Below, piece after piece: positions 9,208 to 39,716 of a DNA stretch of 64,000 bases (positions within the stretch are counted from its first letter, which is position 1; every line of letters begins with the position of its first letter). This DNA is from Evansella sp. LMS18. GTDB taxonomy: Bacteria > Bacillota > Bacilli > Bacillales > Salisediminibacteriaceae. The notes below the pieces were generated by a model. That model was not told where the DNA came from, made no database searches, and saw nothing but the letters and a program-made list of their open reading frames with translations. The stretch spans positions 248,001 to 312,000 of the forward strand of contig NZ_CP093301.1 of the NCBI RefSeq assembly GCF_024362785.1, given 5' to 3'. Made by a program: the position numbers and the translations under genes.

Positions 9208-9765
9208 TTAAACTTCGTTCCGGTAAATGGATATCACTGTATCTCCATACCGTTCTTCTTTTGTTCTGTGCAATGTTTCGTATGATTCTTCAAGAGCCAC
9301 CTGTATCGAGTGCTCCACGACTACGGTGCCGTTTTTAACAATAAGATTGTTCTGCCCGATAAATTCCAGCTCTTCCGGGAGCCTGTGCTTCATATATGGA
9401 GGATCCAGGAAAATAAGATCGAACTGCATTTCCCTTTTCACAAGAGCTTTCAGCGCTCTGGAAGCTTCATTCCTGAAGACACTTGCTTCCCCGGAGGGTA
9501 TCCTGCAGGCTTTCAGGTTAGCGTAGATTGTTTCCACTGCCTTTTTATCCCGGTCCACAATCACTGCCTCATCCATGCCTCTGCTCAAGGCCTCGATTGC
9601 AAGGCCGCCGCTGCCTCCGTATAGATCCAGAACTGTTCCTCCCTCAAAATAAGGTCCTGCCATATTGAAGATAGCTTCTTTTACTTTATCTGTTGTTGGC
9701 CTTGTTGACTGGCCAGGCACTGCTTTTATGTGCAGACCTTTATATTTTCCGCTTATTACCCTCAT
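9208..9765 (-). CDS. rsmD: 16S rRNA (guanine966-N2)-methyltransferase RsmD
   Basis: A 185-residue Rossmann-fold methyltransferase that modifies G966 (E. coli numbering) in the small subunit. SAM-binding motif I is VLDLYGGSGGLAIEALSRG, and the catalytic motif DPPY occurs in LIFLDPPYMKH. The start MRVISGKYKGL is canonical. In B. subtilis this gene is ylbH. Confidence 0.95.
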   Translation of the reverse strand: MRVISGKYKGLHIKAVPGQSTRPTTDKVKEAIFNMAGPYFEGGTVLDLYGGSGGLAIEALSRGMDEAVIVDRDKKAVETIYANLKACRIPSGEASVFRNEASRALKALVKREMQFDLIFLDPPYMKHRLPEELEFIGQNNLIVKNGTVVVEHSIQVALEESYETLHRTKEERYGDTVISIYRNEV

Positions 9766-9890: not shown

Positions 9891-9919
9891 GTATAATCTC
9901 ACATAACTGGTCCATAATA
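9891..9919 (+). promoter_or_regulatory. Sigma-F/sigma-G type forespore promoter
   Basis: GTATA (9891-9895), a 17-bp spacer and CATAATA (9913-9919) fit the sigma-G consensus and, with GG at 9909-9910 just before the -10, also the relaxed sigma-F form. It drives the RNA that begins near 9926. Confidence 0.72.
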
Positions 9920-9925
9920 AAGGTA

Positions 9926-10097
9926 GCAACAATATTTGTTGCTGACAACCGCGGAGAAGACTTACGTTTCCCCATAAGTTCTTCCTCCGGTTTCTCCTCT
10001 CCCATAGCCTTGGCAGTATTGAACGAGGGAACCCTTCGTACCCTTTTTCAGCTGCTATAAGGCAGCCCGCAGACATGAGTGCTGCGGGATTTTTTTA
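9926..10097 (+). ncRNA. csfG: CsfG-like sporulation small RNA (overlaps the ylbH-leader motif region)
   Basis: A roughly 172-nt independent transcript is predicted in the ylbG-rsmD gap, opposite in direction to both. It starts at a forespore promoter, opens with a perfect 8-bp hairpin (9925-9932/9936-9943) and ends in a textbook terminator (CCCGCAG 10066-10072 / CTGCGGG 10082-10088, then seven T). In B. subtilis the same gap holds CsfG, a forespore RNA conserved in endospore formers, and Rfam lists a ylbH leader motif there (both from memory). Position, strand and promoter class all agree. The target is unknown to me. Confidence 0.75.
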
Positions 10098-10437: not shown

Positions 10438-10466
10438 AAAGCTTTCAACAGAGTTGAAAGCTTAAA
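10438..10466 (-). terminator. Terminator of ylbF-ylbG
   Basis: AAGCTTTCAAC (10440-10450) pairs with GTTGAAAGCTT (10454-10464). The stem overlaps the ylbG stop codon and is followed on the minus strand by T-rich sequence. Confidence 0.85.
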
Positions 10467-10737
10467 TTCCCATTTTGTAATCAAATTCTTTTTCTTTTTC
10501 AGGCACAGAGTTCTGGTACTCTGTTTTTATCCATGGTCTCATAGACATGGAAACTTCTTTTACGAAATGAAGGGAACGGAGTTTTTCCATCGTTTGTTCT
10601 GCCCGATCTTCATCGCAATACATTACTACATATTTCATCTTTTTTGAGACATAATGTATATTTCCATATTTTCTGAGCTGTTTGACTTGTTTCAAAGACT
10701 GTATCCAAACAGCTAAGCCAACCCGGTTTCCAACCAT
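10462..10737 (-). CDS. ylbG: YlbG, DUF2129 family protein
   Basis: A 91-residue cytosolic protein of the YlbG/UPF0298 family, whose function is unknown. The core VWIQSLKQVKQLRKYGNIHYVSKKMKYVVMY is typical. The start at 10737 (MVGNRVGLAVW) is preceded by AAAGGGGA; the frame extends 15 codons further but without a ribosome site. It follows ylbF, the conserved pair. Confidence 0.9.
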   Translation of the reverse strand: MVGNRVGLAVWIQSLKQVKQLRKYGNIHYVSKKMKYVVMYCDEDRAEQTMEKLRSLHFVKEVSMSMRPWIKTEYQNSVPEKEKEFDYKMGI

Positions 10738-10814
10738 TGGTACGTCCCCTTTAATTTTCTTAATATTCAATAATACTAGCATAATTTAGAAGTTTTGACA
10801 AACTCACGCCAGTA

Positions 10815-39408: not shown

Positions 39409-39504
39409 ACGATATTCACGGACATTCAATAAGAAAAAACACCATAAAGAAAACTCGCCGGTGATTGGCGAGCCTGGTACTGTACTTTCCTAAAGCAAAA
39501 TAAA

Positions 39505-39537
39505 ACGGAGCTCTCTATGAGAGCTCCACATTTTTAT
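39505..39537. terminator. Bidirectional terminator speA/SR1
   Basis: GGAGCTCTC, loop TAT, GAGAGCTCC (39507-39527), with T-rich tails on both strands. Confidence 0.88.
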
Positions 39538-39665
39538 AATTCCAGAGTTTCTTCTTTTTTGCTTTCCCCGCACTCTTCGCAGCATGTTCCATAAAGTACA
39601 TGCACTTTTTCCGCCTCATAATAATCAATTACCTGGTTGCAAGATTGACATACAATACTTCCCAT
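39534..39665 (-). CDS. sr1P: GapA-binding peptide SR1P
   Basis: A 43-residue peptide starting MGSIVCQSCNQVIDYYEAEK and containing VLYGTCC. The N-terminal CQxC, the VxVLYGxCC block and the charged tail match the SR1P family, which binds GapA and promotes RNase J1 activity in B. subtilis. Zinc binding by CxxC...CC is likely. AAAGGAG lies 10 nt before the ATG. It is translated from within SR1. Confidence 0.92.
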   Translation of the reverse strand: MGSIVCQSCNQVIDYYEAEKVHVLYGTCCEECGESKKEETLEL

Positions 39666-39688
39666 GGATGACACACTCCTTTGATTTT

Positions 39689-39704
39689 TGTAAGCGCTTT
39701 TCTT
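39689..39704 (-). promoter_or_regulatory. CcpA-type cre site in SR1
   Basis: AAGAAAAGCGCTTACA on the minus strand fits the catabolite-responsive element. It begins about 6 nt after the predicted transcription start, so CcpA would act as a roadblock; SR1 is known to be repressed by sugars in B. subtilis (CcpN and CcpA). Confidence 0.65.
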
Positions 39705-39716
39705 ATCCTTATATTC

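Follow-up and report, generated by a model that had tools for sequence, protein, structure and literature searches.

A copy of the forespore small RNA gene csfG in Evansella sp. LMS18, and its probable reach among endospore formers beyond Bacillus

CsfG is a small RNA of Bacillus subtilis, reportedly described by Marchais et al. (2011, RNA Biol 8:358). Northern blots in B. subtilis left the ylbH-sense strand undetected and detected the reverse strand strongly, and the reverse strand was equated with CsfG (PMC3574147). The gene is under the control of the forespore sigma factors sigma-F and sigma-G and had no known target in 2021 (PMC8216469), while a 2025 paper states in its introduction that CsfG regulates sporulation, germination and competence mRNAs, with no target named in that passage (PMC12456014). 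These two sources differ on CsfG targets, none known in the one and mRNAs regulated in the other. The segment name S547 is likewise used in two ways: of PMC8216469 and PMC9147052, one applies it to CsfG itself and the other to the homologue of Bvs196, next to CsfG.

We analyzed a 64,000-nt stretch of the Evansella sp. LMS18 genome (the window). In it, csfG sits between ylbG and ylbH/rsmD and is transcribed opposite to both neighbors, with the following layout in window positions.

9208-9765, minus: rsmD (Pfam Cons_hypoth95)
9891-10097, plus: csfG interval, with promoter, 5' hairpin, core and terminator read in the sequence
9891-9919, plus: sigma-F/sigma-G-type promoter, -35 GTATA (9891-9895), 17-nt spacer, -10 CATAATA (9913-9919)
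9925-10094, plus: small RNA gene csfG (about 170 nt), with its ends predicted from promoter and terminator
9925-9943, plus: 5' hairpin AGCAACAA-TAT-TTGTTGCT, 8 bp, loop of 3 (TAT)
9952-9989, plus: core hairpin of the Bacilli, 13-bp stem, from RNAalifold on 35 Bacilli
9980-10003, plus: conserved core TCTTCCTCCGGTTTCTCCTCTCCC, from alignment A1, with exact matches in at least 118 genome contig stretches
9991-10001, plus: invariant 11-nt TTTCTCCTCTC inside the core, in 49 of 49 distinct aligned segments, all found by family similarity, which favors conserved copies
10023-10045, plus: internal terminator-like hairpin ACGAGGGAACCCTTCGT then ACCCTTTTT, from a generic terminator scan
10066-10096, plus: intrinsic terminator, CCCGCAG-ACATGAGTG-CTGCGGG (10066-10088), A, then T7 (10090-10096)
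10462-10782, minus: ylbG (DUF2129)

The preliminary description had reported a GTATA-N17-CATAATA promoter, an 8-bp 5' hairpin and a 7-bp GC-rich terminator with T7, all on the plus strand and opposite to both neighbors. Direct reading of the letters confirms these elements, and rsmD and the DUF2129 gene at 10462-10782, which we take to be ylbG, are both on the minus strand; coaD and ylbF lie beyond these flanks. The promoter type and the terminator place the RNA on the plus strand. As a motif score, calculated from sequence only, the promoter of this locus reaches the maximum of 12 out of 12 against the sigma-F/sigma-G consensus that we used. The core hairpin carries TTTCCCC (9967-9973) in its loop and CTTCCTCC (9981-9988) in its 3' arm, and the reverse complement of the core region, GGAGGAAGAACTTATG, has the layout of a Shine-Dalgarno sequence and start codon. 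The terminator at 10066-10096 has a 7-bp GC stem and a loop of 9 nt and is thus unlisted by the generic scan, whose loop limit is 8 nt. The same scan reports the internal terminator-like site as 10023-10039, followed by ACCCTTTTTC, at a position inside the csfG RNA. A run similar to the 10023-10045 hairpin is also present in a close relative (L075). In the window copy this internal hairpin could yield a shorter csfG RNA, giving two RNA lengths.

This interval holds the csfG gene, a known small RNA gene whose RNA is on the plus strand. The Rfam family RF00516, the 'ylbH leader', matches the minus strand from 10098 to 9949 at 80.6 bits (cut-off 50), covering model positions 1-122 of 122; this is its sole match in the genome at E<=1e-3, and the family also matches in the B. 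subtilis control genome. The covariance-model check with RF00516 thus returned a match where the absence of a hit had been named as grounds for doubt. Together with the position in the gap between ylbG and rsmD, the direction of promoter and terminator, and the B. subtilis northern (PMC3574147), this match upholds the earlier proposal that the region is CsfG, and the sigma-F/sigma-G control that it gave for the B. subtilis RNA agrees with PMC8216469. Elsewhere in the window, at 39497-39713 on the minus strand, there is an Rfam SR1 sRNA match (48.9 bits, cut-off 45). One frame there, MGSIVCQSCNQVIDYYEAEKVHVLYGTCCEECGESKKEETLEL, resembles the SR1P peptide, and a dual-function SR1 is likely at this position.

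The distribution of the element was followed in a draw of 398 Bacillota genomes. RF00516 matches 149 of them at E<=1e-3 and 13 above its cut-off. Around a subset of the RF00516 matches we took 120 loci (L001-L120), and the core is present in 118; the other two (L079, L080), second weak Rfam matches, are without the core and were left out of later counts. In 20 loci outside Bacilli, no Rfam family reaches its gathering score. A sequence-only model of the core (R1), trained on 49 distinct segments of the core, of which many come from the drawn genomes themselves, and giving E-values that are rough, finds 195 genomes of the 398 at E<=0.01 and 179 at E<=1e-5; in the window genome (G000) its match G000:C1:257959-258011 corresponds to window positions 9959-10011. 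Among the 16 weaker genomes at least one match is real by eye (G270, locus L116), and three are from genomes without SigG (G119, G140, G247). A double match in G108 proved to be two overlapping contig ends. The exact core matches include Syntrophomonadaceae, Fuchsiella, Dethiobacter, Alicyclobacillus, Brevibacillus and Thermoactinomycetaceae, and, judging by the names among them, the non-Bacilli genomes of the draw are presumably Clostridia. Two metagenome-assembled contigs labelled Acetobacteraceae and Desulfovibrio (L170, L171) have a typical csfG core, which probably reflects wrong binning of Bacillota contigs. In Bacillus velezensis, an 807-kb 'plasmid' (L241, NZ_CP083716.1) carries ylbJ-coaD-rsmD-csfG-YlbG family and looks like a piece of chromosome filed as a plasmid.

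The occurrence of csfG follows that of SigG. Calling SigG by TIGR02850 at E<=1e-100, with 1e-50 to 1e-100 as intermediate, we found it in 333 of the 398 genomes, with eight intermediate and 57 having only weaker matches of other sigma factors. At E<=1e-5, csfG is present in 174/333, 4/8 and 1/57 of these classes, respectively (Fisher p 2.6e-15 for csfG against SigG, a value that ignores shared descent), and the sole SigG-negative genome with csfG, G343, is 61% complete. No copy was found at E<=1e-5 in 159 of the 333 SigG-positive genomes of this draw. Among 60 relatives, SigG is present in 49 and csfG (E<=1e-5) in 48 of those 49, as against none of the 11 SigG-negative relatives, which belong to two genera (Fisher p 3.5e-11, again with shared descent ignored). 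In the 49th SigG-positive relative, G014, the copy is diverged (L078) and scores 44.4 bits with Rfam and E 0.0037 with R1, and weak matches near the cut-offs occur in the SigG-negative relatives G012 (R1 E 0.008) and G028 (Rfam E 3.1e-4). The window genome carries SigG (E 3.4e-155), and its host is predicted from sequence to be an endospore former.

What the csfG of Bacilli shares with that of Clostridia is sequence. Among 35 Bacilli sequences the core hairpin is nearly invariant, one of its 13 pairs having changes on both sides, and the folding energies of ten Bacilli copies range from -13.0 to -17.9 kcal/mol; in three diverged copies (L037, L077, L078) the hairpin still folds with changed pairs. 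In L078 the stem is rewritten yet folding and the middle C-rich piece is lost, while TTCCCCA and TTTCTCCTCTCCCA are kept, so that the RNA retains UUCCCCA and UUUCUCCUCUCCCA. Of nine Clostridial copies folded, four have almost no structure (L044, L048, L097, L118; -0.7 to -2.6 kcal/mol), two have a stable hairpin upstream of the core (L053, L060) and three have part of the core paired (L045, L088, L113; -5.6 to -8.7 kcal/mol). The core is thus unpaired or nearly so in six of the nine, yet conserved, which argues that what is shared is the sequence and not the fold. From the small form in Clostridia it seems that the C-rich strip alone may suffice, and the 11-nt stretch, unchanged in all 49 distinct segments of Bacilli and Clostridia, points to the bases that a mutational study should change.

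For these features we propose a mechanism. The forespore-specific sigma-F or sigma-G would direct RNA polymerase to make the plus-strand RNA of about 170 nt, ending at the terminator 10066-10096. Of the C-rich stretches that the RNA would display, UUUCCCC would lie in a loop and CUUCCUCC in a stem arm, with UUUCUCCUCUCCC unpaired, and the strip would pair in trans with Shine-Dalgarno and start regions of forespore mRNAs and block their translation. Support for the pairing is indirect: the strip is complementary to GAGAGGAG-type Shine-Dalgarno sequences, the reverse complement of the core reads GGAGG-N8-ATG, the core does not depend on its orientation to rsmD, and the design resembles that of RoxS and FsrA. 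We think it rather likely that csfG encodes a forespore sRNA acting in this way from the plus strand, the trans pairing, the translational block and the targets being what we infer.

We searched 40 relatives for targets with the pattern GAGAGGAGAAA-N1-12-ATG, which complements the 3' strip. It matched in 36 of the 40, at 95 places in all, compared with 39 when the pattern was reversed; 90 start regions among the 95 places were read (30 loci and 60 stretches), and 78 of these have a frame of at least 40 aa. No supported target emerged among these 78, where abrB was the one gene to come up in more than two genera. It did so in four cases, one of them in G013, a genome without csfG; six other clusters have two members each. 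A comparison of 50 abrB start regions (30 loci and 20 further) does not support abrB as a CsfG target: GAGAGGAGA is also present in L363, L369, L370, L376 and L379, whose genomes lack both SigG and csfG, while the abrB of this genome (L368) is without it. In these start regions (L332-L381), GAGAGGAGA is a frequent form of the abrB Shine-Dalgarno sequence among Bacilli, including those that lack SigG and csfG.

Protein binding could account just as well for a conserved unpaired strip. CsfG might titrate, as a decoy, some RNA-binding protein with a preference for runs of pyrimidines (Hfq, a cold-shock or a spore-specific protein), and this would fit with sequence, not structure, being the part held in common with Clostridia. 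The B. subtilis RNA was co-purified with Hfq, and its level drops modestly when hfq is mutated (PMC3574147), but that same modest effect of hfq loss argues against the decoy, as do 11 consecutive invariant letters in a 24-nt core, which would seem to exceed what loose pyrimidine binding needs. We consider a decoy unlikely, and retain pairing in trans with mRNA start regions as the preferred reading.

The neighborhood of csfG bears on whether it instead silences rsmD-coaD in the forespore in cis, either as an antisense RNA or through interference between transcripts being made. Using the rsmD of this window in tblastn searches, we found rsmD divergent and upstream of the core in 220 of 236 loci (113/118 and 107/118), and this neighborhood is kept in Bacilli and Clostridia, with the other flank variable, as a cis effect would lead one to expect. 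A minus-strand promoter-like site also lies beyond csfG at 10160-10132, at chance level (1 found, 1.3 expected). Against this, three loci (L034, L100, L121) have csfG turned round with respect to the rsmD operon, so that rsmD runs in the same direction, and rsmD was not found near the core, within a 1.5-kb flank, in ten (3/118 and 7/118). The core is exact in L034 and one base off in L100 (L121 was chosen by exact core), and, where rsmD was unfound, exact in L057 and one base off in L059 and L107. Since the core is kept or one base off where csfG is inverted relative to rsmD or no rsmD was found nearby, csfG need not act in cis; the conservation, moreover, is in the core, at a median of 199 nt from the start of the rsmD match, and not in an overlap. 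Silencing in cis is thus improbable. The earlier characterization of the RNA as antisense-oriented stands for this window and fails as a fixed property, csfG and rsmD having the same direction in the three inverted loci.

It is very improbable that CsfG pairs with the ribosome, for which the starting observation is that CTTCCTCCGGTTT is the exact 13-nt complement of 16S rRNA AAACCGGAGGAAG, in this genome in 10 of 10 16S matches. A 16S segment was found in 17 of 68 genomes searched, one of which, G013, is without csfG; the complement is exact in eight of the 16 csfG-bearing genomes (G000, G038, G047, G198, G293, G430, G145, G366), but inexact in the other eight, with no covariation. In G400, G357 and G144 the 16S is changed with no matching CsfG change, in G154, G115 and G246 the 16S is changed (wobble) and CsfG unchanged, and in G014 and G081 the 16S is kept and CsfG changed.

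RF00516 presents the element as a 5' leader, a cis-regulator of rsmD/ylbH on the minus strand, and indeed it matches the rsmD-sense strand, with rsmD divergent beside the core in nearly all loci as counted above. We set the strand evidence across loci against this. From 238 loci, 12 sequence duplicates were removed to give 226 distinct loci (including two viral stretches, L239 and L240), and eight with short flanks to give 218 for promoter and terminator counts; L121-L238 were picked by exact core match and so are uninformative on core conservation, and were not selected on promoter, terminator or neighbors. A promoter motif of at least 11/12 is present in 119 of the 218 loci, compared with 6 of 1090 shuffles and none of 218 on the other strand's side; at 10/12 or more the numbers are 191/218, 110/1090 and 2/218, and of these 191 promoters 105 have a spacer of 17 nt and 81 one of 18 nt. 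A terminator-like hairpin lies downstream of the core in 211 loci, against 25 of 218 shuffles and 48 of 218 on the far side of the other strand.

Wobble and energy were counted in those 184 of the 226 loci whose promoter scores 10 or more and which also have a terminator. Stems of the 5' hairpin, which 140 of the 184 RNAs have near the 5' end, hold 181 G-T against 77 A-C, and terminator stems (180 RNAs) 163 against 66; two flank controls are without this G-T excess (94 vs 223 and 190 vs 223). More G-T than A-C in stems favors the plus strand, overall; in Clostridia alone the stem wobble is neutral (28/25 and 34/31). Folding energy gave no preference for the plus strand, which is lower in 71 of the 184, with a mean difference of 1.4 kcal/mol towards minus; this slight average advantage would fit the leader, and we set folding energy aside as uninformative on strand. 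Promoter and terminator run opposite to an rsmD/ylbH transcript, rsmD lies at the other side of csfG and in the same direction in the three inverted loci, and the leader strand was undetected by northern in B. subtilis (PMC3574147). We give the leader hardly any credence. The direction of promoter and terminator across relatives, with the northern, makes the Rfam 'leader' a mirror image of csfG; RF00516 itself reaches gathering score on the minus strand only, and the preliminary view that the 'leader' is a separate RNA on the opposite strand is borne out.

That the minus-strand GGAGG-N8-ATG starts a small protein (MGKRKSSPRL... here) has next to no chance of being right: the ATG complement is present in 203 of the 226 distinct loci, but the frames run from 2 to 73 aa with stops anywhere, and the printed sequences share no protein beyond the nucleotide motif. 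A plus-strand peptide was also considered and dropped, the commonest frame being of 13 codons, without a Shine-Dalgarno sequence, in 79 of the 184 RNAs.

Pieces of the core match 20 viral stretches, of which 17 look like chance by eye; the other three, all on phage contigs (IMG/VR), are as follows.

L239, 5939-5961, minus: csfG segment
L240, 1467-1489, plus: csfG segment
L387, 1-40, plus: csfG segment

All three carry the 3' half of csfG; in L239 and L240 this includes AAATAAGTTCTTCCTCCGGTTTCTCCTCTCCC and what looks by eye like a terminator run, and in both the core starts about 100 nt after the end of a tyrosine integrase match (PF00589), in L239 to the C-terminal part only. L387 begins inside a csfG of the L038-L042 type, which we take to be that of Paenibacillus, less than 0.5 kb from an amidase gene. 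A search of the 236 genomic csfG loci gave no relative of the L240 integrase, nor were further relatives of it found, and the phage collection gave nothing. A csfG segment beside an integrase is as if csfG contained an attachment site, this being what such a site would look like. If csfG is an attachment site, the prophage would sit inside a forespore gene.

While the element in the window is itself a known RNA, CsfG is probably an ancient forespore sRNA of endospore formers, with a reach beyond Bacillus: many Clostridia would have a stripped form at rsmD, consisting of promoter, weakly folded C-rich strip and terminator, Bacilli would have folded the first half of the strip, the gene would be gone where sporulation was lost, and some temperate phages would carry its 3' half beside an integrase, as if it were an attachment site. 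In the literature searched, we found no description of Clostridial csfG copies or of phage use of csfG; the 2011 paper by Marchais et al., which lies beyond that search and has 'endospore formers' in its title, may contain Clostridial copies.

Like CsfG of B. subtilis, the window copy lies in the gap between ylbG and ylbH/rsmD on the same strand, and the two agree in promoter type, in C-rich stretches and in matching the family RF00516. It differs in having a second terminator-like hairpin (10023-10045) between core and terminator, and the present core search extends CsfG to many Clostridia. The RF00516 'ylbH leader' is the identical element, matched at full length, but it is drawn on the opposite strand and typed Cis-reg, and its 50-bit cut-off accepts 13 of the 398 drawn Bacillota genomes versus 179 with the core at E<=1e-5. 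The Rfam family should therefore be reversed in strand, retyped from leader to sRNA gene, and widened. With RoxS/RsaE and FsrA of the Firmicutes, CsfG shares unpaired C-rich stretches, which RoxS and FsrA use against mRNA targets, and PMC4409812 and PMC8216469 group CsfG with them. Unlike these RNAs, CsfG has a sigma-F/sigma-G-type promoter in place of ResD or Fur control, and a long invariant core; the likeness is one of design.
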